From: Pantoea nemavictus
GTDB lineage: Bacteria; Pseudomonadota; Gammaproteobacteria; Enterobacterales; Enterobacteriaceae
Direction: 5' to 3'
Assembly (NCBI RefSeq): GCF_037479095.1
Contig: NZ_JBBGZW010000001.1
Coordinates: forward strand, 3,286,001-3,350,000
DNA length: 64,000 bases
In this document: piece after piece, positions 7,130 to 31,508 of the stretch
Layout: the number at the start of each line of letters is the position of its first letter
Position numbering within the stretch: the first letter of the stretch is position 1
Program-made: the position numbers and the translations under genes
Notes under the pieces: model-generated
Seen by the model: only the letters and a program-made list of their open reading frames with translations
What the model was told of the DNA's origin: nothing
Databases searched by the model: none

Positions 7130-7167
7130 TAACAGATTCCTTCCTGAAATGTGTATTGGTCTGGCGT

Positions 7168-7824
7168 TTATCCTTTGCCAGTCAGATATTGCAGATGATC
7201 GTTCATGATGAATGTGGCAATAGCAATGGCAACGATAATACCGCTACGAATAAGCCAGGGAGCGCGCTGCCAGAACGATGATTTATAGGGTGAACGCTGA
7301 ATAAAAATCGGTTTGTCGGGTGATTCAGACTGCTCAGGTAATAGTGCTTTTAGCTTCTGCATCAGCGAAATACGCTCTTCGTTATCTTCCGTCAGACACT
7401 TTCCGATATAGCCGAAGCGCAACATGCGGTAATAGCAGGCCACAAGAGTTTCCGCAGGCGCGGGTTCATGCAGCAACGTTCTGATGCGTTCGTAGAAGAT
7501 TTCACCCCCATTAAGATGAGCGAGAAAATATCCTTGTAACGGCGAGCGTTTCCACCAGACAGAGATGTCTGTATCCGGGATCGTCATGATCAGTTCATCA
7601 AGAAATACGCTATGCGCGAACGTGATCTCCTCGCAGAAAATAGGGGGTGCACCAGCGGCGAGGAGTTTATCCTGGACCTGCTCGATCAGGGTGAAACAGC
7701 GCTGGTAGAGCGCATCATCAATGGTGATGGTTTGTCCGTTTCGTATGGCGAGAGACAGCAGCCAGGTTTCCTGCATCAGAGTGTCGAGGGTATTAATTGA
7801 GATGTTGTGATCTGCAGAGGTCAT
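7168..7824 (-). CDS. tssL: TssL/DotU, T6SS membrane complex subunit
   Basis: This is a DotU/IcmH-family protein of about 218 residues. The cytoplasmic domain contains CEEITFAHSVFLDELI and LRFGYIGKC. One transmembrane helix lies near the C-terminus (GIIVAIAIATFIM), with only about ten residues after it, so there is no peptidoglycan-binding extension. TssL joins TssM and TssJ in the envelope complex. I prefer ATG 7824, preceded by AGGA at an 8-nt spacing, over ATG 7833, which has almost no spacing to a ribosome site. It is the first gene of the T6SS cassette in this window; its partners tssM and tssJ are not visible. Confidence 0.88.
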   Translation of the reverse strand: MTSADHNISINTLDTLMQETWLLSLAIRNGQTITIDDALYQRCFTLIEQVQDKLLAAGAPPIFCEEITFAHSVFLDELIMTIPDTDISVWWKRSPLQGYFLAHLNGGEIFYERIRTLLHEPAPAETLVACYYRMLRFGYIGKCLTEDNEERISLMQKLKALLPEQSESPDKPIFIQRSPYKSSFWQRAPWLIRSGIIVAIAIATFIMNDHLQYLTGKG

Positions 7825-8396
7825 GAGCACCATCCTGGTAACTACTGAGTAATGTTAATCCCTTAACCCGATAACAAATTAAATCGAGTGCATTGCCAAT
7901 GCTTATTACGAGTGCAGTTAAAAAGCTGGACTCTGTGCTTTTCGCGCAATGTTTAAACTTCAGTGGCGATGAAGGTATTACATTGAGTGATAGTTTATCA
8001 AGCTGGAAATTCAAATTTTGGAATGCGGCTCTATTTACGAACTGATTTTAACGATGCTGTTAAAAGTAATTTTAACGTTATCTATTAACAGGTGCTAATA
8101 GGTTATCATCGTTGATTTAATTGGATTTTAATTTTTTGCTTGGTTTGCAGCATACGATGTCATTAAACCGCAGCGCTACAGCCTGATGGAGATAGTAAGG
8201 CTATATTTATCCGGCGAGGATGTGTATGCGCGAAAATGAATGAAGTTACGGTGGCGTTAATAATGAGAGTAAAAAAATTATATTGTTTTGGCTTTAATGA
8301 GTTTTGCAGTTTTATGTTCTCATGGAAGTTTTTAACTAACGTTAATGCATATATTTATCAGCCTATTTTAAGGTCGTTTTTAGATATTATTAACTT
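7825..8396. other. AT-rich intergenic stretch between T6SS and Ter modules
   Basis: This 570-bp stretch is clearly AT-richer than its flanks and has no convincing gene. It should contain the promoter for tssL on the minus strand and any terminator for the TerW-like gene. I see no clear inverted repeats with a T tract, no tRNA and no integrase, so the module border is not marked by an obvious attachment site. Confidence 0.5.
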
Positions 8397-8864
8397 TTAC
8401 TTTTTTACCTGCCGCAACCGCGCAATCAACTCATCCAGCCCGCTCTCCACCAGCATCTCCACCGCATCGCTCCGTGTAGTTTCACTCAACCGCACCACCT
8501 GGTCGATTTTCCTTAAAACAGACATGCGTAATGACAGCGACACTGCTTTCTTTTTCTCTTTGTCGAGAAATACCCGGCTGACGGTTTCGCTCTGTTGCAG
8601 TTCAGCGTTGAGCTTGAGTGCTTCATTAATATGACGCAGGCTTTTTTTGTCGAGTTTGCCAGCGTCAGTCAACTGATAGCAGTGGGTGAGGCGGCTATAT
8701 TTAATCTCCGCAGACCAGGATTCACGCAGTTCTTTTAGCGCGCGCGTTAGCGTGGGTTCGGAGCAGTCGAGCGAGGCTAAAATGCGGCTGGACGCTATCG
8801 GTTTGCCGCTGCTGAGCAGTGAGGCCAGCATAAATACGCGTGTCTGTCGGGTACTGAGTTGCAT
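8397..8864 (-). CDS. terW: TerW-like regulator of the ter genes
   Basis: The protein has 155 residues. The N-terminal third is a winged-helix-type domain (ASLDCSEPTLTRALKELRE at about 29-47). The C-terminal part (about 107-150) reads like a ribbon-helix-helix domain: AVSLSLRMSVLRKID then TRSDAVEMLVESGLDELI. Length, layout and position next to a ter cluster fit TerW, a DNA-binding regulator of ter operons; I recall the family and could not align it. The gene lies 87 nt downstream of the CitE-like gene on the same strand, so it may be the last gene of that arm. The ribosome site is weak. Confidence 0.65.
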   Translation of the reverse strand: MQLSTRQTRVFMLASLLSSGKPIASSRILASLDCSEPTLTRALKELRESWSAEIKYSRLTHCYQLTDAGKLDKKSLRHINEALKLNAELQQSETVSRVFLDKEKKKAVSLSLRMSVLRKIDQVVRLSETTRSDAVEMLVESGLDELIARLRQVKK

Positions 8865-8951
8865 GGTCGATTGAGGCCTGCGTTAAAATTCAATGGTCTG
8901 TATCGCCCTCCTGGCAAACGGTTTTCGACAGTATCAGAGGGTGTTTAAATA

Positions 8952-9905
8952 TCAGGTAAATAGGTTCCGAAAAACCGGCGTATCCTCAGATCGTGTATCC
9001 GGTGCAATGCCATATTCCTGCGCGCGCGCCAGGATCGCGGCGGCCCAGCGGCGATGCGTCGCCGGTTCGCACATCGCGCCCTGCGATTTGAAAACCGCCT
9101 GGCTGGAGTTGAGGATGCGGAACGCGTCAGCCTGATCGCTGGCCGAAACCATCAGCATCTCCTGAATCTTGCCGATCTGGCTGGGATGGATGGCGGTTTT
9201 GCCGACCAAACCGTGCGCGATATCCAGTGCCAATTCCTGATCCATAATCTGCTGATCGTCGATGTGCTCGCACACCGGTGCGGTCAGCGCAAAATCACGC
9301 GAAGCAAACACCGCCACCAGCATTTTAATGGTGTAACCCATCGGGCTGTCATACAGCGTGAATTGACGCGAGCGGCGCAAAGAGAGCACATTCATCAAGT
9401 CGTTACCGCCAATACGCAGGGCAATCACCCGCTGGCGGCAGGGATGGTTCTGCAGCGTGAGAGCCAGCTCGCGCATCGCCACCACGTCAAACACCTCTTC
9501 GGTTTCCAGCGTCGGCATCATGCACAGATGGCTCGGTTCGAGAATCTGCCACCATACCGGCAACGAATCGGCGGTGAATTTCGGCAGCACAAAACCATCG
9601 ATCGCGCTGAGGTTGAGGTTTTTCACCAGCCATGCGCCCATCTCGCTGTTGCGTGGACGGACAAAAACCAGCGGCCACTGCGCGTTGCCATTGGCGCGCT
9701 GTTCGGCATTCAACACCTGCAAAATTTGCTGCAGATTGTGCAGTGCCTGCGGCAGATCGGCATCACTCACCGCATCTTCCAGGCAGATCACCAGCGAGCG
9801 CAGGCCGCTGATTTTATTGTGCAGAATGGCATCGACGATATCGCAGCGCACCGCCGGCATATATAGCGTTGCGCCCAAACGCCACGGAGAGAGACGGTCG
9901 TTCAT
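8952..9905 (-). CDS. CitE/HpcH-like C-C lyase of the Ter biosynthetic module
   Basis: The protein has 317 residues, starting at ATG 9905 (TGATG junction with the previous gene). It is a HpcH/HpaI aldolase or citrate-lyase-beta type TIM barrel: the metal-site motif CLEDAV near residue 42, RIGGNDLM in the middle and GKTAIHPSQIG near residue 230. Such enzymes cleave or join C-C bonds of acyl or keto-acid substrates with Mg2+. Linked Ter operons in other bacteria carry the same gene and have been proposed to make a nucleoside-like metabolite. The substrate is unknown. Confidence 0.82.
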   Translation of the reverse strand: MNDRLSPWRLGATLYMPAVRCDIVDAILHNKISGLRSLVICLEDAVSDADLPQALHNLQQILQVLNAEQRANGNAQWPLVFVRPRNSEMGAWLVKNLNLSAIDGFVLPKFTADSLPVWWQILEPSHLCMMPTLETEEVFDVVAMRELALTLQNHPCRQRVIALRIGGNDLMNVLSLRRSRQFTLYDSPMGYTIKMLVAVFASRDFALTAPVCEHIDDQQIMDQELALDIAHGLVGKTAIHPSQIGKIQEMLMVSASDQADAFRILNSSQAVFKSQGAMCEPATHRRWAAAILARAQEYGIAPDTRSEDTPVFRNLFT

Positions 9906-10984
9906 CACAGCACCTTTTTGATTATCGTCACGGCGCGGTATTGCCCAAGATCGGCTCCCGCTTCTGTGATGGTTAGCCCTTTTTGTTGGGCCAGATAGAC
10001 CAGCAGCGCCACGTCGGGATCGTCCACCGAACGCACCAGCACCTGATCCGGCACACGACGCAGCACGGCGCGCGTGGCTTCGGCGATGCCCGGCTTGATG
10101 CGGTTAATGCTGTTCACCTGATAACGCTCCGCCAGCATGGCGATCACCGCTTCACTTTGCGCGACTAGCCGTTGCTGATGTTGTGGATCCTGCTGGCAAG
10201 CGGGCAGGGTGCTGATATCCAGCGCGCGCGCGTATTCCGCCACGGTGTTCACCAACTGCTGACTGCAATCATATTGCGCTAAGTGGTCGCACTGCACGCA
10301 GCCGTGCAAGCCCTCTTCAGACCACAACGAGCGCGAGATCAAGCCCGACACCGGCGCGCCCATAATGCCAAACGGGATCAGCCAGTCATCATCGCTGGCC
10401 GAAAGCCACGCCCGGCCACAAGGATCGGCCAGCACCACTAAACGTGGTTGCAGCGGATAGCCGGGACGCTGTTCCAGGCTGCGGATCAGCTCGCCAGTGA
10501 TGGCGCCTTTGCCGGTCCAGCCATCGACGAACACAATGCCGTCGCTGCCGTGGCGCGCTTCAATGATGTCCAGCGCCGCGCTATCAATGCCGCGATCGCG
10601 GATGATGCTGATGCCGTAATGATACGATTCGCGGCCCATCGCGCGCAGCGCCTGTTGCAGCATCACGCCGAGCGGCACGCCCGCGCGCACCAGGCTTACC
10701 AGCACAATCGGCGTGTCGCCAAACTGCTGTGCCAGCGTCCGCGCCAGCATGGTGACCTCTTTCGCCAGCCGGCCCGCGCCCTGATCCAGCGCGCGGGAAA
10801 ACAGCTCGAGGTGCCAGCGCGTCGGTTCCGGTTCCTGGCTCAGCATCTCGGAGTAGTGACGCGCGCCGGATTGGATCAGCTGCTCTTTTTGCTCGACCGG
10901 CGTCATGTCGATTTCAACCGGTTTCAGCAAAAATTCGACGTCGCCGGGTTGGTAGGATCCAGAGAAAGGCAGGTTATTCACCAT
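9905..10984 (-). CDS. StiP/PRTase-like protein of the Ter biosynthetic module
   Basis: I choose ATG 10984 (MVNNLPFSGSYQPGD), preceded by GGAG and 1 nt after the HAD stop, over an upstream codon inside the HAD gene; this gives 359 residues. It matches the family listed as cysteine protease StiP or PRTase_1 (PF11202). It has SLVRAGVPLG at ~97-106 and VDGWTGKGAI at ~153-162, which resemble the phosphate-binding loops of phosphoribosyltransferases. A conserved Cys pair (CVQCDHLAQYDC) may bind metal. The protease label is a database name; the sequence motifs favour a PRPP-type transferase. Its coupling to HAD, ATP-grasp and CitE-like genes fits one pathway. Confidence 0.8.
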   Translation of the reverse strand: MVNNLPFSGSYQPGDVEFLLKPVEIDMTPVEQKEQLIQSGARHYSEMLSQEPEPTRWHLELFSRALDQGAGRLAKEVTMLARTLAQQFGDTPIVLVSLVRAGVPLGVMLQQALRAMGRESYHYGISIIRDRGIDSAALDIIEARHGSDGIVFVDGWTGKGAITGELIRSLEQRPGYPLQPRLVVLADPCGRAWLSASDDDWLIPFGIMGAPVSGLISRSLWSEEGLHGCVQCDHLAQYDCSQQLVNTVAEYARALDISTLPACQQDPQHQQRLVAQSEAVIAMLAERYQVNSINRIKPGIAEATRAVLRRVPDQVLVRSVDDPDVALLVYLAQQKGLTITEAGADLGQYRAVTIIKKVL

Positions 10985-10985
10985 C

Positions 10986-11759
10986 TCATTGTTCTCCGAA
11001 TAGGGATTGGTTGATGCGCTCGGCAAACTGGCTTTGACGTGGAATGCCGTACCAGCTGCACAGCTTCATAAAGCGGTGATCGCTGAGGCTGTCGCCGAGG
11101 CCAATCACCGGGAACACGCCGCGTTCTTTACGCAGTTTTTCCAGCAGAAAGCTGACGGCTAAGCCTTTTTCCACCACGTTCGGCAGCCAGGCCACATTGT
11201 TGCTGTTGCGATGGATGTAGTAGCCGGCAGTCGGGAAGCGTTGCTCGATTTCATCGGCGATGGCGTAAAGCTCTGCGAGCCGCGTGCTGTCGCGATGCTT
11301 CATCACCAGATAGATCGGCGTCACGCCATATTCATAGTTGATGCGCGCCCAGCCATTGATGTCGCGTTCTGCCATCAGGTCGGTAATCGCCTGCTGCATG
11401 GAGAGCAGCGCCGGACCGTAAGGCGTGAGTTGTTCCAGCATGTGCGCGCGCCATTCGGCATCTTCCTCACCTTGCGGATTGAGGATCACTGCGCCGTGCG
11501 TGGTCACCGCCCAGGAACGGAAAGGGACTTGCACGCGGGCAATCTCTTCGGTGCCGCGTGCGGTGACCGGGATCAAATCGGCTTGCTCAATCATCCAGTC
11601 GACGAGCATCGACTGCTCCTCAGTCATAAAGCTGCGTGGCTGCAGGCTGAGATCGAGCGCGCCGGTGCGGAACGGCTCAAGATCCAGCTCGTCCACCATT
11701 TTGCGGCGCGTTTGAAATAGCGTGTCGTCAAGGTCGGAAAAAATCACCGGCTTATTCAT
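10986..11759 (-). CDS. HAD-family phosphatase of the Ter biosynthetic module
   Basis: This is a 257-residue HAD protein. The nucleophile motif SDLDDTLF carries Asp9 and Asp11, and the C-terminal acidic motif is GLGDSLSDHRFM. A cap domain lies between, in the style of Cof/MPGP-type phosphatases. The start overlaps the PRTase-TRSP gene by 8 nt and the end is 1 nt from the StiP-like gene, so translation is coupled. It probably removes a phosphate from an intermediate made by the neighbouring transferases; the substrate cannot be read from the sequence. Confidence 0.82.
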   Translation of the reverse strand: MNKPVIFSDLDDTLFQTRRKMVDELDLEPFRTGALDLSLQPRSFMTEEQSMLVDWMIEQADLIPVTARGTEEIARVQVPFRSWAVTTHGAVILNPQGEEDAEWRAHMLEQLTPYGPALLSMQQAITDLMAERDINGWARINYEYGVTPIYLVMKHRDSTRLAELYAIADEIEQRFPTAGYYIHRNSNNVAWLPNVVEKGLAVSFLLEKLRKERGVFPVIGLGDSLSDHRFMKLCSWYGIPRQSQFAERINQSLFGEQ

Positions 11760-12879
11760 AGCTAATCACCTCAACTTGGGGCGCAACCTTGGCCAGTGCC
11801 GCGGTTAACAGCGGGTCCACGCTGTCGACGGGCGTTTCGATGCACAACAAAATGCGGTCAAACTGTTGATGCGCCACGTTATAAACAAAGTTGGCGATGC
11901 CGAGGCCGTAGTTATCGCCGAAGGCAATCGCCGATTCGATGGCAAAACCGGTGGCGATCGGTGAACGCGTGGTGGAGCTGTATTTCACCTGCGCGCCCTG
12001 CGCCGCCAGCCGTTCGGCCAGCAGGAAAGGTTCCCAGACAAATTCACTGCTGCCGAGCACGAGAATTTTCTCTCCCGGCTGCGCCTGAATGGCTGCACCG
12101 AGATCGGCGGCGGGGGCTGCCATGCCGAGTCGGCCCCAGCTCTGTTTACCGGTAATTGGCACGGTGGCAGCATCGTTGAGTGCGACGGCGGGCATCGGCG
12201 GCAGCGCGGCATCCGGGTCCTGCTGCCAGTGCCAGTCACCTTGCACCAGCGATATGCTGCGCAGCGCAACCGGACAGCGCGCGGCTAGCGCCTCGCCGCT
12301 CCAGTCGGTGAGGGTGACGGCGATAACCTGCTCGATCTGCTTTAAGCCGCCGTCGTTGCGCAGCGCTTCAAGCAGATTAATAAAGGTGTTGCCGGTGGTG
12401 GCTTCGTCATCAATCATTACCAGCGTGCGCGCATTCAGCACCCGATGGCGCAGCTGCGCGTCATCGGGCAGATAGATCAGATGATCGGTGGCGTGGCTAT
12501 GATTCTCTTTAAACTCGCACAGCAAATCGGCCTGCTGCGCATGGCGCGTCGAGGTGAGATACACCGCTTCGCCTGCGCGCTGGCGCACTTCATCAAATAC
12601 GCCTGCGCCGAGGCCAACTGCGGTTTCGGCCATGCCGATAAACAGCACCGGGCCCTCAGCGAAAGGCGGAAACTGCTCGGCAAGTTGGCGATAAACGGCA
12701 CGCATTTTTTCCGGCTCAACTGGAATATGGCGGCCGAGCACTTTACTGACGAACAGGAAAGCGCGCTTGGGATTGCGACGTTCGGCGATCTCAAACAGGT
12801 CGTCGATGGCGCTAATGCCGCCGGTTGGCGTGACGGTCAGCGTGCCGCATGAAAGCGTCCTGCTCCAAAGTGTGGTCAT
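11752..12879 (-). CDS. Phosphoribosyltransferase with TRSP domain
   Basis: The protein has 375 residues. An N-terminal PRTase fold shows the PRPP loop VMIDDEATTGNT at ~154-165 and a conserved GRHIPVEPE near 49-57. The C-terminal part (~240-375) fits the TRSP domain that follows PRTase_2 in Ter-linked operons (LGSSEFVWEPFLLAERL and YSSTTRSPI). It likely uses PRPP to form a ribosyl-type bond. It is separated from the ATP-grasp gene by 10 nt and overlaps the HAD gene by 8 nt. Family and partner set agree; the reaction has not been shown. Confidence 0.85.
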   Translation of the reverse strand: MTTLWSRTLSCGTLTVTPTGGISAIDDLFEIAERRNPKRAFLFVSKVLGRHIPVEPEKMRAVYRQLAEQFPPFAEGPVLFIGMAETAVGLGAGVFDEVRQRAGEAVYLTSTRHAQQADLLCEFKENHSHATDHLIYLPDDAQLRHRVLNARTLVMIDDEATTGNTFINLLEALRNDGGLKQIEQVIAVTLTDWSGEALAARCPVALRSISLVQGDWHWQQDPDAALPPMPAVALNDAATVPITGKQSWGRLGMAAPAADLGAAIQAQPGEKILVLGSSEFVWEPFLLAERLAAQGAQVKYSSTTRSPIATGFAIESAIAFGDNYGLGIANFVYNVAHQQFDRILLCIETPVDSVDPLLTAALAKVAPQVEVISYE

Positions 12880-12889
12880 GGAATGTTCC

Positions 12890-13948
12890 TCATTGAACCT
12901 GGTTGGACAGGACGGAGTTGTAAGCGACCACGTCGCTCAGCGCGCGGACGGTGGCTGGCGCGAAGGCGCTGCGGGATTCGTCGATTGCCTGCTGCTGACT
13001 GATCAAGCCTAGCTGGCGTAGCGCAAACAAGCCGGGAAGATTTACGCCGCTGAAGCGCGTGTAACCAATGCCGCCGGAAGGACGCATATTGATCTCCAGT
13101 AATAACGGTTTGCCGCTGGCATCATTGCGCGTCTGCACGTTGATCAATCCATCGGCGATCATGGCTGCAGCACAAGCTTGTGCCAGCTCAAAGGCTTCGC
13201 CGCTGTGCTCGAGATACTGCAACGCACCCTCTTTGCGACGCGCCACGGCGGCCAGCACTTTGCCGTTTTCCGCCAGCATATCGACGGAATATTCCGGCCC
13301 CGGCAGCCACGGCATTAATACCAGCGGTTCCATGCTGTCGGCGGCTTCCAGCGCCTGGAGGTAATATTTTGCATTAACCCGGCGTGCATCCGGATGAGTA
13401 AACGCCGCCATTGGCGAGACGCTTTCATCAAACTGCCAGAATCCCATGCCATAAATGCCTTTAACCGGTTTTACGCACAGCGGCAGATCGCCAAACGGCT
13501 GGCTGGCGATCAGCTCACGTAACTGAGCCGGTGAGTCGACACGCAGCGAAGGCACCACCGGCAGGTTGAGGCTCTCCATGCGCTGGGCAAACGCGACTTT
13601 ATCGTCAGCCAGATCCAGCATGGCGAGATCGCGCGCGCCCGTGGTTAAGCGTGCGCCGCTGGCTTCAATGGCAGCGCGATGTGCCTCAAACCAATGGGCA
13701 TGGCGGCCAGTATGAATCGCCTGAATGGCGTATTTTTCTACGGTAGAAAGAATAAATTCGAGGCGCTGATTAACATCGTTGGGTTCTATTAATGCATAAT
13801 CCGCCAAAGAAAGTATTTCATTACGCTGTTGGCGATGCGATGCATAAATCGACACATTGTAGTTATGTTTTTTAGCTGTAGACGTAATGCCAGTAATTAT
13901 ATCGCGCTGGGAGGATAAACCTTCCATTAGCCAAATTTTGTGAGACAT
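12890..13948 (-). CDS. ATP-grasp ligase, first gene of the Ter biosynthetic arm
   Basis: The protein has 352 residues with an ATP-grasp layout. The N-terminal domain starts MSHKIWLMEGLSSQRDI. The central part has LCVKPVKGIYGMGFW and the ATP/Mg site LLLEINMRPSGGIGYTRFSG near residues 275-300. These enzymes join a carboxylate to an amine or thiol through an acyl phosphate. It leads a minus-strand operon divergent from terZ. The promoter region holds an ATCAT-type dyad 75 bp upstream that recurs before terZ. Product unknown; part of the proposed Ter metabolite pathway. Confidence 0.85.
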   Translation of the reverse strand: MSHKIWLMEGLSSQRDIITGITSTAKKHNYNVSIYASHRQQRNEILSLADYALIEPNDVNQRLEFILSTVEKYAIQAIHTGRHAHWFEAHRAAIEASGARLTTGARDLAMLDLADDKVAFAQRMESLNLPVVPSLRVDSPAQLRELIASQPFGDLPLCVKPVKGIYGMGFWQFDESVSPMAAFTHPDARRVNAKYYLQALEAADSMEPLVLMPWLPGPEYSVDMLAENGKVLAAVARRKEGALQYLEHSGEAFELAQACAAAMIADGLINVQTRNDASGKPLLLEINMRPSGGIGYTRFSGVNLPGLFALRQLGLISQQQAIDESRSAFAPATVRALSDVVAYNSVLSNQVQ

Positions 13949-14022
13949 TTCTAATTATTTCCGCAGGAGGCTTGCCGGTGGGTTATGGATTGCGAGTGTA
14001 TTTATCACGCCGTAACTAGTCA

Positions 14023-14038
14023 ATCATAATATGATTTT
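14023..14038 (+). promoter_or_regulatory. Ter motif copy 1, candidate operator
   Basis: The sequence is ATCATAATATGATTTT, an imperfect dyad (ATCAT-AAT-ATGAT) followed by T residues. It starts 75 bp upstream of the ATP-grasp start codon. It matches copy 2 at 14191 in 15 of 16 positions. Confidence 0.55.
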
Positions 14039-14190
14039 TTACCCTAACGTAACCTTATGAATTTTAATGTAAAGAATTGTCATGTTTAGTGCGTGAGTTG
14101 AACCGCGGTGATTTGCTTAAGTTGTTATTATAAAACGATTTATTTTGTTTCATGAAATTGCTGTGAAAATTAATGCCGCTCATCAATATC

Positions 14191-14206
14191 ATCATGATAT
14201 GATTTT
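14191..14206 (+). promoter_or_regulatory. Ter motif copy 2, candidate operator
   Basis: The sequence is ATCATGATATGATTTT. It ends 63 bp upstream of the terZ start codon and differs from copy 1 by a single A-to-G change. It precedes a TATAAA box. Confidence 0.55.
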
Positions 14207-14268
14207 GGCCTCATGGAATTTGAAGCAAATATAAAACCCTTTTCAAACCTGTTTGAAGGAATTATGAC

Positions 14269-14853
14269 ATGGTTTCATTAAGCAAGAATCAGACGGTCTC
14301 ACTCAGCAAACAAACCGCTTCGCTGAATAAACTCCATTTCGGCTTAGGCTGGGATCCAATTAAAAAGAAAGGCTTCATGGGCAAGCTTTTCGGTGGCGGC
14401 AGTGATTCAATTGATCTCGATGCCAGCTGCGTATTACTGGATCAAGCCGGTAATGCCATTGATACCATCTGGTTCCGCGCATTAACCTCGAAATGCGGTG
14501 CCGTTAAGCACAGCGGCGATAACCGGACCGGCGAAGGTGACGGCGACGATGAAGTGATCAACGTCGAATTATCACGTCTGCCGGCCAACGTTGAGTATCT
14601 GGCGTTTACGGTGAACAGCTTCCAGGGCCAGACCTTCAACGAAGTGGAAAATGCTTTCTGCCGCGTCGTCGATCAAAACGGCAAAGAGCTGGCGCGCTAT
14701 GAACTGACCGAGCAAGGCAGCCATACCGGCATCGTGATTGCTTCCCTGCACCGCAACGGCGGACTGTGGGACTTCACGGCGCATGGCCGCGCGAGCGCAG
14801 GTCGTACCATCGACGCGATGCAAAACGACATCGTTGCCGCAGTGGTGCGCTAA
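14269..14853 (+). CDS. terZ: TerZ, TerD-family tellurite/stress protein
   Basis: This is a 194-residue TerD-domain protein. It begins with SLSK repeats, then has GLGWDP, a Gly-rich insertion (FMGKLFGGG) and the calcium-binding block [12 protein letters not shown]. The Gly-rich insertion separates TerZ and TerA from TerD and TerE. TerD-type proteins bind Ca2+ and act at the inner membrane with TerB and TerC in resistance to tellurite, phage and colicins. The stop overlaps the terA start (TAATG), so the two are coupled. First gene of terZABCDEF. Confidence 0.92.
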   Translation: MVSLSKNQTVSLSKQTASLNKLHFGLGWDPIKKKGFMGKLFGGGSDSIDLDASCVLLDQAGNAIDTIWFRALTSKCGAVKHSGDNRTGEGDGDDEVINVELSRLPANVEYLAFTVNSFQGQTFNEVENAFCRVVDQNGKELARYELTEQGSHTGIVIASLHRNGGLWDFTAHGRASAGRTIDAMQNDIVAAVVR

Positions 14854-16034
14854 TGAATATGACGCCGGGGAGCAATGCTCCCGTTCCCGCAAATCTGCTG
14901 ACGGTGCGCGTGCTGTCTGGCGGCGCCGTTGATGCTTCGGCATTTCGTCTGTTCGCCAGCGGCAAAGTGAATGGCGATGCCGACATGGTGTTCTACGGTC
15001 AGCCGGATAACGATGACCGTACCATCAGCCTGAAAAGCGAAGGGCACAATTCTGCCTTTGCTGTCGATCTCAACCGCTTGCGTCCTGAGGTCCAGAAAGT
15101 TGCCTTCACCGTCACCTGTGACGGCGGCCCCAACGTGTCGGGTTTGCAACGCCTGGCAATTCAGGTGGAGCAGGGCGGCGAAGTGCTGCTGAACGGCAGC
15201 GTGGAGCTGGTGGGACGTCAGGAAGCGGCGTTGATCCTCGGCGAACTTTACCGTCGCAATAATGACTGGAAATTCCGCTTTATTGCACAGGGTTTCAACG
15301 GCGGCCTGCAGCCGCTGGCGGAACATTTTGGTGTCGATGTGGCTGAGCCGGCACCAACGCCTGCTCCAGCGCCGCAGGCGGCTCCAGCACCAGCACCAGC
15401 ACCAACGCCTGCACCGGCAAAAATCAATCTGAGCAAAGTTTCTCTCACCAAAGAGAAACCAGCCATCAGCCTGACCAAGCGCGATAACTTCGGTGAAATC
15501 CGCATTAACCTCAACTGGCATCGTGAGACGAACAGCGGTGGCGGCGGATTGCGCTCCTTCTTCGGCGGCAACAAAGGCGTGGATCTCGATCTCGGCGCCT
15601 TCGTTGAGCTGCAAGACGGCTCGCGCGGCGTGATTCAGGCACTCGGCGGCAACTTTGGCGCCATGCATGCCAAACCTTTCGTACACTTGCAGGGTGACGA
15701 TCGTACCGGCGAGGTTACCGATGGTGAATGGCTGCACATTAACGGTCGCGAGTGGAGCCAGATTCGTGAAGTGCTGATTTTTGCCTTCATCTACCAAGGC
15801 GCGGCCAGCTGGGACAAAACGGATGGCGTAGTGACGCTGCACATCCCAGACCAGCCACCGATTGAAACGCGTATGACGGAAGGGGAGAACCGCCGCAACA
15901 TGTGTGCGATTGCTCGCCTCGTCAATGAGAACGGCAGTATCCGCGTCGAGCGTATCAATCAGTTCTTTAACGGGCATTCCGATATGGATAAAGCTTTCGG
16001 TTGGGGATTCAACTGGCGAGCCGGTTCCAAATAA
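14853..16034 (+). CDS. terA: TerA, two-domain tellurite resistance protein
   Basis: I place the start at ATG 14853 (MNMTPGSNAP), which shares its A with the terZ stop, giving 393 residues; the frame extends further upstream only inside terZ. A first TerD-like domain covers ~1-165. A Pro/Ala-rich linker at ~168-195 joins it to SLTKEKPAISLTKRDNFGE and a second TerD-like domain (~210-390) that has the Gly-rich loop FFGGNKGVDLDLGAFVEL. The calcium ligands are changed in the second domain (GDDRTGEVTDGEW). It is thought to work with TerZ, TerD and TerE as a surface-associated stress complex. Confidence 0.92.
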   Translation: MNMTPGSNAPVPANLLTVRVLSGGAVDASAFRLFASGKVNGDADMVFYGQPDNDDRTISLKSEGHNSAFAVDLNRLRPEVQKVAFTVTCDGGPNVSGLQRLAIQVEQGGEVLLNGSVELVGRQEAALILGELYRRNNDWKFRFIAQGFNGGLQPLAEHFGVDVAEPAPTPAPAPQAAPAPAPAPTPAPAKINLSKVSLTKEKPAISLTKRDNFGEIRINLNWHRETNSGGGGLRSFFGGNKGVDLDLGAFVELQDGSRGVIQALGGNFGAMHAKPFVHLQGDDRTGEVTDGEWLHINGREWSQIREVLIFAFIYQGAASWDKTDGVVTLHIPDQPPIETRMTEGENRRNMCAIARLVNENGSIRVERINQFFNGHSDMDKAFGWGFNWRAGSK

Positions 16035-16054
16035 TTACAGACAGAGGATCTACT

Positions 16055-16510
16055 ATGAGCTTTTTCAACAAGGTCAAAGGGGCATTTAACTCCGGCCGCG
16101 ATGAGCTGACCAAACAGGTTAGCCGCTTTAAAAATAAGAAATTTATGCAGGGTACAGTCGCAGTCTGCGCGCGCATTGCGGTTGCAGATGGCGGCGTGAG
16201 CGCAGAAGAAAAACAGAAGATGATCGGTTTTCTGCGTGCGTCTGAAGAATTGAAAGTTTTTGATACCACGGAAGTGATTGAGTTCTTCAACAAGCTGGTA
16301 AGCAGCTTCGATTTCGATCTGGAAATCGGCAAGGGCGAAACCATGAAGTACATCCTGGCATTAAAGGATCAGCCGGAAGCCGCGCAGTTGGCGATCCGTG
16401 TAGGTATTGCTGTCGGTAAAAGTGATGGTGATTTTGATGCTGACGAGCAAAAAGCGGTGCGCGAAATCGCCGTGGCTTTGGGCTTCGATCCAGCAATTTT
16501 TGGGCTTTAA
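16055..16510 (+). CDS. terB: TerB
   Basis: The start is ATG 16055 (MSFFNKVKGAFNSG) with AGAGG upstream, giving 151 residues, the usual TerB length. It is all-helical, with acidic metal-binding stretches VADGGVSAEEKQ and KSDGDFDADEQKAV, the second an EF-hand-like DxDxDxDE. TerB binds metal and partners with TerC at the inner membrane. Gap to terA is 20 nt and to terC 23 nt. Confidence 0.93.
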   Translation: MSFFNKVKGAFNSGRDELTKQVSRFKNKKFMQGTVAVCARIAVADGGVSAEEKQKMIGFLRASEELKVFDTTEVIEFFNKLVSSFDFDLEIGKGETMKYILALKDQPEAAQLAIRVGIAVGKSDGDFDADEQKAVREIAVALGFDPAIFGL

Positions 16511-16533
16511 GTTTCGTCTTTTAAGGGTTAATC

Positions 16534-17571
16534 ATGGTATCTACACACATTGGCTTTCCAGCTGAAACCGTCGCGGTGTTCATCGCGCTGTCAGTAGGGG
16601 CTATTTTTATCGACCTGTTTATGCACCGTGGCGACAAGCCAATTTCGCTGAAAAGCGCGGCGTTATGGTCGGTGTTCTGGGTTGCAGTGGCGATGGGTTT
16701 CGCCGGCTTCCTCTATATCCATCACGGCGCTGAAGTTGCCAGCCTGTTCGTGACCGGTTACGCGCTGGAGAAAGTTCTTTCCGTCGATAACCTGTTCGTG
16801 ATGATGGCGATCTTCTCGTGGTTTGCCGTTCCGGACCGCTATCGTCACCGCGTGCTCTACTGGGGCATCATCGGTGCTATCGTCTTCAGGGGCATCTTCG
16901 TGGCGATCGGTACTGGCTTGCTGAGCCTCGGTCCGTACGTCGAAATCGTGTTTGCGCTGATCGTAGCGTGGACGGCGGTGATGATGCTGAAAAGCGGCGA
17001 CGACAGCGACGAGATCGAAGATTACTCGCAGCACCTTGCCTATCGCGGCGTGAAACGCTTCTTCCCGATCTGGCCAAAAATGCGTGGTAACGCCTTCCTG
17101 CTTAATCAGAAGGAAGTCGATGAAGAGCTGCAGAAGCCAGAAAACAAAGATGTGATGGTCGGTCGCGGCAAGAAAGCGGCGCTGTATGCCACGCCGTTGA
17201 TGCTGTGTGTGGCGGTGGTTGAACTCTCTGACGTGATGTTCGCCTTTGACTCGGTGCCGGCGATTATCGCGGTGAGCCGTGAACCGCTGATCGTCTATAG
17301 CGCCATGATGTTCGCCATCCTCGGCTTGCGTACTCTGTATTTCGTCCTTGAAGCATTGAAGCAGTATCTGGTTCACCTGGAGAAAGCCGTTATCGTGCTG
17401 CTGTTCTTCATCGCGGTGAAACTGGGTCTGAATGCTACCGATCATATCTGGCATCACGGCTACAGCATCTCTGCTAGCGCCAGCCTGTTTGTGGTACTCG
17501 GCGTGTTAGCGGTCGGTATTGTGCTCAGCGTGATGTTCCCCGGGAAACCCGAGGAAAAAGAAGAGAGCTGA
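16534..17571 (+). CDS. terC: TerC, integral membrane protein
   Basis: The protein has 345 residues with about nine hydrophobic helices. Conserved TerC features include EKVLSVDNLFVMMAIF early and VVELSDVMFAFDSVPAI later, where paired Asp residues in membrane helices suggest metal-ion handling. TerC anchors TerB and the TerD-type proteins at the inner membrane; recent views link the wider family to Mn2+ export. It lies in the middle of the ter operon, 50 nt before terD. Confidence 0.95.
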   Translation: MVSTHIGFPAETVAVFIALSVGAIFIDLFMHRGDKPISLKSAALWSVFWVAVAMGFAGFLYIHHGAEVASLFVTGYALEKVLSVDNLFVMMAIFSWFAVPDRYRHRVLYWGIIGAIVFRGIFVAIGTGLLSLGPYVEIVFALIVAWTAVMMLKSGDDSDEIEDYSQHLAYRGVKRFFPIWPKMRGNAFLLNQKEVDEELQKPENKDVMVGRGKKAALYATPLMLCVAVVELSDVMFAFDSVPAIIAVSREPLIVYSAMMFAILGLRTLYFVLEALKQYLVHLEKAVIVLLFFIAVKLGLNATDHIWHHGYSISASASLFVVLGVLAVGIVLSVMFPGKPEEKEES

Positions 17572-17621
17572 TCTTCAACCAGTGATGAGTCTGAAAAATC
17601 ATTAACCAAGAGGTAATTACA

Positions 17622-18200
17622 ATGAGCGTTTCTCTTTCTAAAGGCGGTAACGTTTCGCTAAGCAAAGCGGCACCAACCATGAAAAACGTCCTCGTTGGCC
17701 TTGGCTGGGATGCACGTTCCACCGATGGTCAGGACTTTGACCTTGATGCGTCAGCGTTCTTGCTGTCCGCCAGCGGCAAAGTGCGCGGCGATGCTGACTT
17801 TATTTTCTATAACAACCTGGTCTCTTCTGACGGTTCCGTTTCGCACACCGGTGACAACCGTACCGGTGAAGGCGATGGCGATGATGAATCGCTGAAAATC
17901 AAACTGGACCTAATTCCCGCTGACGTCGACAAAATTGTATTTGTGGTCACCATCCACGATGCACAGACCCGTCGTCAGAGCTTTGGCCAGGTTTCAGGCG
18001 CGTTTATCCGCCTGGTTAACGATGATGACCGCAGTGAAGTGGCGCGTTACGATTTGACCGAAGATGCGTCAACCGAAACCGCTATGCTGTTTGGCGAGCT
18101 GTACCGTAACGGTGCCGAGTGGAAATTCCGCGCGGTTGGCCAGGGTTATGCCGGTGGTTTGGCCTCGGTATGTGCTCAGTACGGTATCAACGCGTCTTAA
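17622..18200 (+). CDS. terD: TerD
   Basis: The protein has 192 residues and a single TerD domain: [12 protein letters not shown] at the N-terminus, [19 protein letters not shown], the Ca2+ site [12 protein letters not shown], and a C-terminal [19 protein letters not shown] clean AGAGG lies before the ATG. It is about as similar to TerE as expected for paralogues, and lacks the Gly-rich loop of TerZ and TerA. A GC-rich hairpin without a T tract follows before terE. Confidence 0.95.
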
Positions 18201-18218
18201 TCGCTGACTTAACTCTCA

Positions 18219-18239
18219 CGGGCAGCCGCGCGCTGCCCG
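18219..18239 (+). other. GC-rich hairpin between terD and terE
   Basis: CGGGCAGC and GCTGCCCG pair around the loop CGCGC. No T tract follows, so this is more likely an mRNA-stabilising or processing element than a terminator. Confidence 0.55.
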
Positions 18240-18269
18240 CATCATCCAATTAAAAGCAGGAGCTTTAAA

Positions 18270-18845
18270 ATGGCAGTTTCTCTGGTAAAAGGCGGTAACG
18301 TTTCCCTGACTAAAGAAGCACCAACCATGAATGTTGCCATGGCGGGTCTGGGTTGGGATGCACGTGTAACCGATGGTCAGGACTTTGACCTTGATGCTTC
18401 AGTGTTTATGGTTGGCGACGACGGTAAAGTGCTGAGCGACAGCGGCTTTATCTTCTTCAACAATAAGCTGAGCGCTTGTGGTTCCGTTGAGCATCAGGGC
18501 GATAACCGCACCGGTGCCGGCGATGGCGATGACGAGCAGGTGAAAATTACCCTGTCTCAAGTGCCGGCTGATGTGAAGAAGCTGGTGTTTGCGGTCACCA
18601 TTTATGATGCAGAAGCGCGTAAGCAGAACTTCGGCATGGTGAGCAACAGCTTTATGCGTATCTTCAACAATGATAACGGCGCCGAAATCGCCCGTTTTGA
18701 CCTGTCTGAAGATGCTTCGACCGAAACCGCGATGGTGTTTGGCGAGCTGTATCGCAACGGCACTGAATGGAAATTCAAAGCCGTTGGTCAAGGCTTCGCA
18801 GGCGGCCTGGCAGCGCTGGCTTCGCAGCACGGCGTGAGCGTCTGA
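18270..18845 (+). CDS. terE: TerE
   Basis: The protein has 191 residues and is a TerD-domain paralogue of TerD ([46 protein letters not shown]). It has GCAGGAG upstream of the ATG. The Ca2+ site is intact. Together with TerD it is the core phage/colicin/tellurite protection protein. A strong terminator follows, so the main ter transcript probably ends here and terF is read at a lower level. Confidence 0.95.
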
Positions 18846-18862
18846 TTTAAAATAGTGTTATT

Positions 18863-18889
18863 AAAGCCCCGGCTGGTCCGGGGCTTTTT
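18863..18889 (+). terminator. Rho-independent terminator after terE
   Basis: AAAGCCCCGG and CCGGGGCTTT form a 10-bp stem around CTGGT and run into TTTTT. terF starts 40 nt further on. Confidence 0.9.
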
Positions 18890-18928
18890 ACTATCTAAAG
18901 GATGCATCCTTAACAGGAGGTTAAAAGT

Positions 18929-20170
18929 ATGATGTTACAACCGGGCCAGAATCTCCCGCTGCAAAGCATGCAGCTGACGCTTCGCCTGCACTATGCCGCC
19001 ACATCCACCTTCAGCGGTGATGTGGATTGCAGCGTTTTCCTGCTTAATGCCAACGGAAAAGTGCGGGGTGATGACGACTTCATCTTCTTCAATCAGCCCG
19101 CGACAGCCAATCGCAGCGTGGTGATGCAAAACACGCCGCAGGGCAGCAGCCTCACGTTGGATCTGAATAAAATCGCTGCAGACGTAAGCAAGATTGCCAT
19201 CACCTTAGTGATTGACGGCAATGAGACGCTGACCGCGCTCAACACGTTGACTCTGACAGCAGAAAATATTGCTCACTTCAGCCCGGAAACGCAGGGGCGC
19301 AGCGAGAAAGCGCTGATCCTGGCAGAAGTTTATCGTCACAACGGCGGCTGGAAACTGCGAGCATTAGGGCAGGGATTCAACGGTGGACTTGAACCTCTGG
19401 CACGCAATTATGGCGTCGATATCGCGCAACCCACGGCGCAACCCGCCGCGCCAACGGTGGTTAGCCTGGAGAAAAAACTGCAGGAGAAAGCGCCGCGGTT
19501 AGTGAGCCTGGCAAAAAAAGCCACCGTTAGTCTGAGCAAATATCAGCTGCAGACGGTAAAAGCGAGAGTGGCGTTTGTGCTGGATGCTTCAGGATCGATG
19601 AAAGGGCAGTTTAGTAAGGGCAACGTGCAGGCGGTACTGGATCGCATTGCAGTGCTGGCGGCGCAGTTTGATGATGACGGTTCGATGGATGTCTGGGGCT
19701 TTGGTCAGCAACACGCAAAATATCCCGATGTCACGCTGGACAATCTTGATGGCTATATCGCTATGATTCAGCGTGGTGGCAAGCAGTCAGCGTGGGAGAT
19801 TTTACCCGGACTGGGCGGCACCAATAACGAGCCGCCGGTAATGGAAGAGTTGATTGATACCTTCCGCCACAGTGATTTACCGGTATACGTAGTGTTTATT
19901 ACCGATGGCGGCATCAGCAAAACGCGCGCCATTAAAGAGGCGATTCGCCGCTCGGCAAACTATCCGATCTTCTGGAAGTTCGTCGGGCTTGGCGGCAGTA
20001 ACTACGGTATTCTGCAGGATCTGGATAACTTCAACGATCGCCGCATCGACAATACCCATTTCTTTGCCATCGATAACTTCGCCAGTCTGGCTGAGGATCG
20101 TTTGTATGATTTGCTGTTGGAGGAGTTTAAACCCTGGCTGGATGCGGCAAAGGCTGACCGGATTTACTGA
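18929..20170 (+). CDS. terF: TerF, TerD-like domain plus von Willebrand A domain
   Basis: The protein has 413 residues. A degenerate TerD-like domain spans ~1-165 without the calcium cluster. Two SL-repeat segments follow ([22 protein letters not shown]). A vWA domain spans ~212-405 with the MIDAS motif DASGS at 219-223. AGGAGG lies upstream of the first ATG. vWA proteins bind ligands through a bound metal, so TerF may link Ter proteins to partners. It lies behind a terminator, so its level may be set by read-through or its own promoter. Confidence 0.9.
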
Positions 20171-20188: not shown

Positions 20189-20869
20189 CTAAGGATCAAG
20201 ACGCAACATGCGCAGTTTTTCCATCGGCACGCGGCGTTTTTTCCACGTTGGATGGAAATGACGCCAGTGCGGGTCCTGCGCGGCGGCCAGTAATTCAAAA
20301 TCACCGCGCGTATCGCCCCAGGCGCGCAGGTGATAGTTATGCAGCGGGCCGTAGACGCTTTCCAGTCGCTTGACCTTTTGCCCGCAGCGGCAGTTGTGAC
20401 CGGTAATCTTGCCAGTGAGAATGCCGTCCACCACCTCTAATTGGGTGCCGATCAGATTGATGCCCAAACGCTCAGCAAACGGCTCTAACACCATCGCAGG
20501 CGAGGCGGAACAGATGGTCACTTGCGCGCTGGAGTTCACCTCAGCAGCCACCGCCAACAGGCCTGCCGGGCGCATCAACTTGTTCCAGTTTGCCGCGCAG
20601 AATAGCTGCGCCTGCTGACGAATCCACTTCTCCTCGACGCCGGTCAAAAACGTTTTAATCAGCACTTCTTTCAGCTCATCACGCGTCAGCTTTTTCCGCA
20701 TGCAGTGCAGCGTGGGCAGCGCTAACCTGGCAATTTTGCGCGCAAAAGCGCGTTTGCCAAAACTGAAGCGCAGAAACGGGATGAAGCTATCGTGAATAGT
20801 CAACGTGCCGTCAAAATCAAACACTGACAGCACCTGATTTTCACGCGCTAAGGAGGATTCCATGGACAT
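20189..20869 (-). CDS. HAD-IB family phosphatase
   Basis: I choose the start at 20869 (MSMESSLAREN), preceded by AAGAG, over an upstream ATG at 20938, giving 226 residues. The motifs are FDFDGTLT (nucleophile Asp), ICSASP in the middle and WGDTRGDFELL near the C-terminus, typical of the SerB/HAD-IB group. Family members dephosphorylate phosphoserine-like or phospholipid headgroup substrates; the target is not known. It converges on terF with an 18-nt gap. Confidence 0.82.
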   Translation of the reverse strand: MSMESSLARENQVLSVFDFDGTLTIHDSFIPFLRFSFGKRAFARKIARLALPTLHCMRKKLTRDELKEVLIKTFLTGVEEKWIRQQAQLFCAANWNKLMRPAGLLAVAAEVNSSAQVTICSASPAMVLEPFAERLGINLIGTQLEVVDGILTGKITGHNCRCGQKVKRLESVYGPLHNYHLRAWGDTRGDFELLAAAQDPHWRHFHPTWKKRRVPMEKLRMLRLDP

Positions 20870-20947
20870 GTTGTTCTCTTTTCGTGCAAGCCGTAATGAA
20901 TGCAACGATGATAGCAAATGGTGAGACGATATTCTCATGCAGGATTG

Positions 20948-30504: not shown

Positions 30505-31092
30505 ATGGGAAATATTGTTGTGAATCGGCACTTTTCTGCAGCGTTATTGAGCTGCATTTTGACCTCTTCGGTCACTTTTTCAGCATCAGCGGTAACAGCA
30601 TCACAAGCCATCAAATCTGGCTGGAATACCTTTAGCGACAACGTTTCTAAAACCTGGTCGCAACCACAGAACTACGATTTTTATCTGCCGGCCATAACCT
30701 GGCATAACCGCTGGACTTATGACGATGAGCACATCGACAAGTACAACGAGCGACCGTGGGGTGCAGGTGCGGGCGTATCGCGCTGGGACGAGAAAGGTAA
30801 CTGGAACGGCCTGTATCTGATGGCGTTTAAGGACTCGTTTAACAAATGGGAGCCGATAGGCGGTTACGGCTGGGAAGCGACCTGGCGACCGTTAAACGAT
30901 CAGAATTTTCACGTAGGTGCAGGTTATACAGCGGGCGTGACGGCAAGGGACAACTGGCGATATATTCCTGTTCCCTTGATTTTACCTTTAGCATCAATTG
31001 GATATGGTCCAGCTACTTTCCAAATGACTTACATTCCCGGTACTTACAATAATGGTAATGTCTATTTTGCCTGGCTGAGATTTGAGTTTTAA
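30505..31092 (+). CDS. pagP: PagP, lipid A palmitoyltransferase
   Basis: From ATG 30505 ([12 protein letters not shown]) the protein has 195 residues; GTG at 30520 is another possible start. A signal peptide ends near TFSASA. The barrel enzyme shares [40 protein letters not shown] and [13 protein letters not shown] with E. coli PagP, including the catalytic His in ITWHNR. It sits in the outer membrane and moves palmitate from a phospholipid to lipid A. cspE follows, as in E. coli. Confidence 0.93.
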
Positions 31093-31242
31093 GCGTTAGC
31101 GCCGTGCAGAAAGTGTGATCAGTATGCAAAAAATCAATATTTATCACTTTTTCATCAAATCGCACTGGACAAATGTCACCGCAATTGCTGTACTAGACGT
31201 CGACACAGTTTAGTGTCCTTTTTTCATGTAAAGGTAATATAG

Positions 31243-31452
31243 ATGTCTAAGATCAAAGGTAACGTAAAGTGGTTTAATGAGTCGAAAGGCTTCGGTTTCA
31301 TTACTCCAGAAGATGGCAGCAAAGATGTATTCGTACATTTCTCTGCAATCAACAGCAACGGTTTCAAAACTCTGGCTGAAGGTCAACGCGTTGAGTTCGA
31401 AATCACTGACGGCGCTAAAGGCCCATCAGCTGCTAACGTTATCGCACTGTAA
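31243..31452 (+). CDS. cspE: CspE, cold-shock-family RNA chaperone
   Basis: The protein has 69 residues and is almost identical to E. coli CspE. It has the RNA-binding motifs KGFGFI and VFVHF. It binds single-stranded RNA/DNA and opposes transcription termination. The upstream 150 bp (31093-31242) is an AT-rich leader typical of csp genes. Position after pagP is the ancestral enterobacterial order. A clean terminator follows. Confidence 0.96.
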
Positions 31453-31472
31453 TTTAACAGTTCGAATTCTGA

Positions 31473-31499
31473 AAACCCGCCTTCTGGCGGGTTTTTTTT
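31473..31499 (+). terminator. Terminator after cspE
   Basis: AAACCCGCC and GGCGGGTTT form a 9-bp stem around TTCT, followed by a run of T residues to 31499. Confidence 0.93.
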
Positions 31500-31508
31500 A
31501 TTCTTTTT

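Follow-up and report, generated by a model that had tools for sequence, protein, structure and literature searches.

A chromosomal Ter stress locus of Pantoea nemavictus with a divergent enzyme arm that may make a ribosylated small molecule

The Ter loci of Klebsiella, Escherichia and Enterobacter plasmids consist of two divergent operons: terZABCDEF and, facing away from it, an arm encoding five enzymes (an ATP-grasp ligase, a PRPP-transferase (PRTase; PRPP, phosphoribosyl pyrophosphate) with a TRSP domain, a HAD phosphatase, StiP with its PELOTA domain, and a CitE-like lyase). Anantharaman et al., in their 2012 Ter paper, predicted that this module makes a nucleoside-like metabolite (cited by PMC8115787 and PMC12054061). 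In the available parts of the later papers, the metabolite is still "predicted" in PMC8115787 (2021), and is worded as shown in PMC12054061 (2025), which cites the same computational 2012 paper. The portion of PMC8115787 dealing with Klebsiella describes two divergent operons, and regards the arm, 14 genes including terXYW, as a putative biosynthetic cluster. Here, we analyse a locus of this kind in Pantoea nemavictus, within a 64,000-nucleotide stretch of DNA (the window; assembly GCF_037479095.1, contig NZ_JBBGZW010000001.1, positions 3,286,001–3,350,000 of the forward strand). The Pantoea locus shares the divergent operons, the five enzymes and terZABCDEF with the plasmid loci; it differs from the Klebsiella cluster in that it is chromosomal, and in that its minus-strand arm has 6 genes (counting terW) rather than 14 with terXYW.

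The locus is real, it is a known kind of arrangement, and the copy in the window is an ordinary one. The reading that we favour, and to which we would give about an even chance, is that this is a chromosomal Ter stress system whose arm makes a ribosylated small molecule. It draws on gene content, gene order, conservation, co-occurrence with ter, predicted folds and shared boxes in the divergent region. The features are as follows:

8397..8864, minus strand: terW-like regulator, 155 amino acids (open reading frame)
8952..9905, minus strand: CitE/HpcH-like C-C bond lyase (C-C_Bond_Lyase), 317 amino acids from ATG (PF15617, E 3.8e-108)
9905..10984, minus strand: StiP, PRTase fold plus C-terminal PELOTA/L7Ae-like domain, 359 amino acids from ATG (PF11202, 1.9e-90; PF15608, 2.8e-26)
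10986..11759, minus strand: HAD phosphatase related to PDB 6d3v/6cj0 (E 5e-45)
11752..12879, minus strand: APRT-like PRTase_2 plus TRSP domain (PF15609, 2.4e-61; PF12500, 3.1e-23)
12890..13948, minus strand: ATP-grasp ligase, ATPgrasp_Ter (PF15632, E 1.9e-40)
14023..14035, plus strand: operator-like box ATCATAATATGAT, arm side (exact match)
14191..14203, plus strand: operator-like box ATCATGATATGAT, terZ side (exact match)
14269..14853, plus strand: TerZ (PF02342, E 8.5e-47)
14850..16034, plus strand: TerA (PF02342, E 4.3e-31)
16055..16510, plus strand: TerB (PF05099, E 1.2e-23)
16534..17571, plus strand: TerC membrane protein (PF03741, E 1.8e-43)
17622..18200, plus strand: TerD (PF02342, E 2.9e-85)
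18270..18845, plus strand: TerE (PF02342, E 3.3e-83)
18929..20170, plus strand: TerF, TerD domain plus vWA (PF10138, E 2e-68)
20189..20938, minus strand: HAD-IB hydrolase, tail to tail with terF (PF12710, E 3.9e-24)

An earlier note on this DNA had described a chromosomal locus in which terZABCDEF diverges from the five enzyme genes. Every one of these genes is open where the note placed it, TerD-family proteins stand together with TerC and TerB, and the position of the locus (3.29–3.35 Mb of contig 1, in a 5.19-Mb genome of 2 contigs) fits a chromosomal origin; the terW-like and HAD-IB genes were not part of that description. A TerD search of the organism's own genome gave five matches (TerZ, A, D, E and F), all in this locus. 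As terX is of the TerD type, no further terX of that type is present in the genome. The note had also listed three overlaps between arm genes. Two are as described: the PRTase and HAD genes overlap by 8 nt (ATGAATAA), and StiP and the lyase gene overlap in TGATG. The third, put at 1 nt, is a spacer between HAD and StiP (TGA-G-ATG). A gap of 10 nt separates the ATP-grasp from the PRTase gene, and one of 87 nt separates the lyase gene from terW, which therefore need not share the translation unit of the arm.

Conservation of the arm was assessed in 81 loci, made up of the best 80 of 572 confirmed relatives and one plasmid, with StiP as the query; 68 of them are long loci of at least 20 kb. Besides StiP itself (81), HAD is present in 81 loci, PRTase_2 in 80, the lyase in 79 and the ATP-grasp ligase in 63. 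The PRTase, HAD and StiP genes are consecutive and co-directional in 78 of the 81, so chance association is not at issue. All five enzymes are matched in 58 of the long loci, and the ATP-grasp ligase is unmatched in the other 10; the window is thus not specially complete. In a few loci an arm gene is matched by more than one open frame and is perhaps split (ATP-grasp in L057, 1353–2529; StiP in L037; HAD in L046). Among named records, the closest StiP relatives are in one titled Enterobacter ludwigii (96%) and in Pantoea sp. SOD02 (93%). Partly similar plasmid DNA was found in 1,299 of 72,556 records, at 60–80% identity and with query coverage below 80% throughout (49% in the best rows); a StiP relative occurs in 2,568 plasmid records and a HAD relative in 2,554.

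Co-occurrence with ter was determined in two samples. Among 60 genomes of the genus, presence/absence profiling, which the earlier note had proposed as a check, found StiP in 10 and TerD in exactly those 10. In the family sample of 129 genomes, StiP is found in 22 and TerD in 24, and all 22 fall within the 24. The situation named in the note as evidence against a linked arm—ter kept, arm gone—is therefore absent from the genus sample and occurs in two of the 24 TerD carriers of the family. One, of 2.0 Mb, has terZABCD, and the 19.5 kb fetched from it contain neither an arm nor terW. The other (L098), of 2.7 Mb, has a ter set in decay: terB is split, terZ is unmatched, terW lies beside ter, and the arm is gone. 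On this distribution, and in the available text of the citing papers, the description of the arm as a ter-associated module with a proposed nucleoside-like product holds.

The converse, an arm with no ter, was also seen. Five of the 81 loci gave no TerD/TerZ/TerA match (L043, L053, L062, L071 and L073). A genome-wide TerD search of L043, L062, L071, L073 and L084 found TerD for L071, L073 and L084; none was found for L062 (Mesorhizobium amorphae) or L043 (Paraburkholderia mimosarum), where assembly completeness is not given. L043 is a truncated contig with transposases. In Moraxella boevrei (L073) the arm is dispersed: HAD, StiP and lyase genes lie together, and TerD and ATP-grasp are matched on other contigs. 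When PF15632 was searched in nine genomes, that of L073 gave a strong match outside the locus (E 1.4e-33), which indicates a split arm, not an incomplete one; in the remaining eight, matches were absent or weak (best 3.4e-9).

Five rhizobial loci were tested for arm genes using hidden Markov models (HMMs). Four carry all of PRTase_2, HAD and StiP: M. amorphae, M. loti 582 p_2, Rhizobium sp. T1473, and R. etli CFN42 p42d. In the fifth, R. leguminosarum Vaf-108, StiP is the one gene of the three to be matched. No lyase or ATP-grasp gene lies beside the trio in the four loci that have it (L099, 5339–8967; L100; L104; L062). In M. amorphae the order is PRTase_2, StiP, HAD, and the lyase and ATP-grasp genes are absent from the 19-kb locus; elsewhere in that genome, the best match to PF15617 has an E-value of 4e-15, and that to PF15632 one of 8e-6. 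Genome-wide matches to these two families call for caution: among 14 control genomes, PF15632 has matches in 13 and PF15617 in 6. No TerD was found in four rhizobial plasmid records (the chromosomes of these strains were not searched). Another R. leguminosarum plasmid has a short HpcH/HpaI gene after StiP; in that case the lyase may therefore have been lost secondarily.

Gene content thus points to PRTase_2–HAD–StiP as the core of the arm, with the ATP-grasp ligase and the lyase apparently dispensable in some relatives; the idea that the five enzymes form a fixed unit is not upheld. The core also occurs in Acinetobacter phage ME3 (L102, 2016–8068), where TerD, a weakly matching TerF-like vWA gene, PRTase_2, HAD and StiP make up a mini Ter set, and no lyase or ATP-grasp match was found within the 15 kb fetched. 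A 15-kb faecal contig labelled Bacteriophage sp. (L103) carries PRTase_2, StiP, the lyase and three TerD genes, and may be bacterial.

Upstream of the rhizobial core we found possible promoter sites. Exact sigma-54-type sites (TGGCAC-N5-TTGC) number five in 152,496 strand-bases of rhizobial loci, versus 0.15 expected under uniform composition, and in three of the five loci one precedes the open frame of the core by 300 to 892 bp. Two of these three also have a NifA-type TGT-N10-ACA motif, at -148 and -139. Sites with up to two mismatches are not enriched (10 versus 7.1 expected in L099; 13 versus 10.4 in L062), and so we regard the exact sites as a lead only. The R. etli NifA-RpoN regulon comprises 120 genes, and the core genes are not named in the accessible part of that study (PMC9611204, 2022).

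For two of the core enzymes, the comparisons call a name into question. The first is StiP, named in databases as a cysteine protease. Its structure model (predicted local distance difference test score, pLDDT, 95.2) matches the PRTase fold; among known folds, one CriT chain scores slightly above HPRT, and PyrR is among the best. A vicinal acid pair is absent from the PRPP loop, which reads D154 G155 in 38 of 38 sequences; StiP, with this single acid, is therefore kept apart from the canonical type I PRTases. A CriT-type O-ribosyltransferase would split its acid pair between the PRPP loop and the pyrophosphate loop; in StiP, one acid is seen in the PRPP loop. Profile comparison of StiP with PRTase_2 gives a probability of 4%, so the kinship of the two rests on fold. 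The candidate role of cysteine protease was rejected: no Cys is invariant (best column, 32 of 38), and fold and motif are those of a PRTase. From sequence and model, StiP looks misnamed, a view that may already stand in the 2012 Ter paper.

The C-terminal domain of StiP is homologous to L7Ae/PELOTA (PELOTA_1 family). Against PDB profiles, 29 of its 30 hits (E up to 5) are L7Ae-like, with a best E-value of 0.0094. Four residues invariant in the 38 sequences—E302, T304, R305 and R309—align with E, T, K and R of the L7Ae motif GANEVTKAVER, the Asn of which is Ala in StiP. StiP thereby unites in one protein a PRTase fold, as in PyrR, with an L7Ae-like domain; we know of no characterised protein with this combination, although we did not search for one. 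Compared with CriT, to which it is 11% identical over the match, it has the L7Ae-like domain in place of a polymerase partner. Likewise, unlike the CriT/CrpP pair of capsule polymerase Bcs3 and of Cj1432, StiP and HAD are encoded by separate genes, with no polymerase partner domain.

The second questioned name concerns the HAD phosphatase. It has no Pfam match at 0.001, and its NCBIfam match to HAD-IIB (1.1e-4) is under the family cut-off. Residues D9 and D11, T66, K198, and D223 and D227 are invariant in 24 sequences; we take them to be HAD motifs I–IV (DxD, T/S, K, acidic pair), all four of which are present. At E 0.001, PDB matches are limited to 6d3v/6d3w and 6cj0, deposited as trehalose phosphatase and homologous to the window HAD over residues 2–252, at 37% identity. 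A tblastn search with the 6d3v stretch found a single Pseudomonas aeruginosa plasmid gene at 99.6%; another 115 records match at 90–95%. The 99.6% gene is flanked by a PRTase gene and StiP, and its ter arm also holds ATP-grasp, lyase and HAD-IB genes together with TerB, TerC and TerD (this locus, CP109686.1 126562–145299, L086, contains two IS1182 copies). An extrachromosomal P. aeruginosa enzyme has been assayed in vitro, for activity and inhibition, as a trehalose-6-phosphate phosphatase, according to the available part of PMC6838324. Judging by the deposited name and the near identity to the plasmid gene, 6d3v is apparently that enzyme. Among the matches listed, no paper linking trehalose phosphatase with ter was found.

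PRTase_2 has the PRTase fold and a PRPP motif of two acids and a TG-T loop, with D157, D158, G163 and T165 invariant in 38 sequences. It is nearest to APRT and xanthine PRTases, and differs from APRT in its C-terminal TRSP domain. A derivation of TRSP from a duplicated PRTase half was considered and is not claimed (weak likeness to the N-terminal half; hhalign probability 22%, P 1e-3). When ten proteins (the five enzymes and TerZ, A, B, C and F) were compared with PADLOC defence models, there was a single match at E 0.01, of PRTase_2 to PRTase_III-A (E 0.0016). The ATP-grasp profile is carbamoyl-phosphate-synthase-like, with K117, K160, E285 and N287 invariant in 20 sequences. The lyase is homologous to the solved citrate lyase family (best, 3qll, E 3e-15), and its E43, D44, R83, R85, E134 and D169 are invariant in 23. 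The terW-like protein has below-cut-off matches alone, to PF25213 (2.2e-5) and the regulator family NF053736 (3.5e-5), and is named by position and literature; homologues occur in 23 of the 81 loci, always directly behind the lyase. The HAD-IB homologue adjoins the ter 3' end in 11 loci and directly follows the lyase in 19, which suggests that it may be a sixth arm enzyme. A conserved HAD downstream of terF is reported for Klebsiella in the available part of PMC8115787.

Between the two operons lie two exact ATCATNATATGAT boxes, 168 bp apart, the sole exact copies in the 64 kb. Allowing up to one mismatch, at least two boxes occur in 22 of 24 divergent regions (the window and 23 enterobacterial relatives), and 48 of the 51 sites in the relatives' loci (485 kb) fall in divergent regions. 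Over the 24 regions taken together, shuffled sequences contained a mean of 0.36 sites and a maximum of 3, with the caveat that the box pattern was derived from the same 24 regions in which it was counted. An intergenic 25-bp palindrome taken alone is not significant, being reached in 103 of 500 shuffles; the case for the boxes hence rests on their repetition across relatives. According to the portion of PMC7843439 available, PhoP acts in P. versatile as a repressor of both operons (6-fold for terZABCDE, 2.2-fold for the first gene of the arm), and TerW was assigned a 25-bp palindrome lying between them. Both operons are probably switched together via the paired boxes, by the putative regulator TerW, whose binding there we infer.

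The mechanism that we propose for a ribosylated product runs as follows. PRTase_2 and StiP, the second PRTase-fold enzyme, would transfer 5-phosphoribosyl from PRPP onto an acceptor, and HAD would then strip the 5-phosphate, a step that CrpP performs behind CriT when capsule is ribosylated. The lyase would probably supply or trim the acceptor, and the ATP-grasp ligase may add an amino-acid-like or acyl group; these would be tailoring steps, missing in some relatives. The product would be formed when both operons are turned on together through the paired boxes, and would most likely act as a signal or ligand within the Ter response to envelope and metal stress, not as an agent of tellurite detoxification. 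In the accessible part of PMC8115787, terZ–F alone gave E. coli MG1655 tellurite resistance, so a need for the arm in tellurite resistance itself is unlikely, and the arm would serve another part of the response. No arm mutant appears in the available parts of two other ter papers (PMC9933665 and PMC8193136).

The nature of the product could differ from this outline. A definite but minority possibility is an N-linked nucleoside-like compound, in which PRTase_2 joins a base-like ring to PRPP, HAD is a 5'-nucleotidase, and StiP is secondary or regulatory. This is the 2012 proposal (as cited in parts of PMC8115787 and PMC12054061), and the closest relatives of PRTase_2, the APRT and xanthine PRTases, do make N-glycosides; yet StiP, the query, is as widespread as PRTase_2 (81 versus 80 of the 81 loci), fits one CriT chain slightly more closely than HPRT, and stands beside a HAD related to a sugar phosphatase rather than to a known nucleotidase. 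An action of StiP on RNA, with the L7Ae-like domain holding the RNA while the PRTase domain phosphoribosylates it, or with RNA regulating the enzyme as in PyrR, we consider rather improbable. Yeast Rit1 phosphoribosylates tRNA from PRPP, and the L7Ae motif with which the four invariant StiP residues align contacts kink-turn RNA; the L7Ae-like and PELOTA_1 matches and the PyrR-like fold point the same way. Against this, the Asn of that motif is replaced, no RNA partner was found (nor any Rfam RNA in the locus at gathering threshold), and a lyase and an ATP-grasp ligase are ill-suited to simple RNA modification. A composite of these ideas is a long shot: CriT-like StiP would make an O- or RNA-linked riboside rather than a nucleoside, RNA-guided or RNA-controlled via its L7Ae domain, and finished by HAD; root-nodule plasmids would have taken up the core without Ter under sigma-54/NifA-type promoters, and the product would be a general stress or host-contact signal, not a tellurite factor.

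The arm might instead be a co-inherited passenger with a stress function of its own, unrelated to Ter signalling. This would fit the presence of the core, and the absence of TerD, in the M. amorphae genome and the rhizobial plasmid records; the two small genomes with ter and no arm; and the sufficiency of terZ–F for tellurite resistance. We think it unlikely in view of the identical StiP and TerD distribution in the 60 genus genomes, the shared boxes, and an association that persists through rearranged gene orders in Desulfovibrio, Pseudomonas, Acinetobacter and a phage. That HAD is a true trehalose-6-phosphate phosphatase feeding compatible-solute metabolism is very improbable: the in vitro use of the P. 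aeruginosa homologue as such (PMC6838324, in part) is countered by the lack of a trehalose-6-phosphate synthase among the arm genes, and two neighbouring PRTase-fold enzymes would be left unexplained. Finally, StiP has next to no chance of being a cysteine protease; the family name in Pfam and the plasmid annotation favour it, and are already contradicted by the alignment, with no invariant Cys, and by the PRTase fold and motif.

Elsewhere in the window, the left neighbours of the locus are VgrG-like and DotU type VI secretion genes (4745–7833, minus strand). The sole Rfam match in the window at gathering threshold is a cspA thermoregulator RNA (31076–31500, plus strand; 134.9 bits).

The value of the locus lies in the comparisons that it allows: a three-enzyme core, two questioned names, and ter-free copies in which to seek the product. 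Under another name, one core enzyme has apparently already been assayed and its crystal structure solved. With the ter-free rhizobial plasmid copies as a clean genetic system, the question of the metabolite becomes directly testable.

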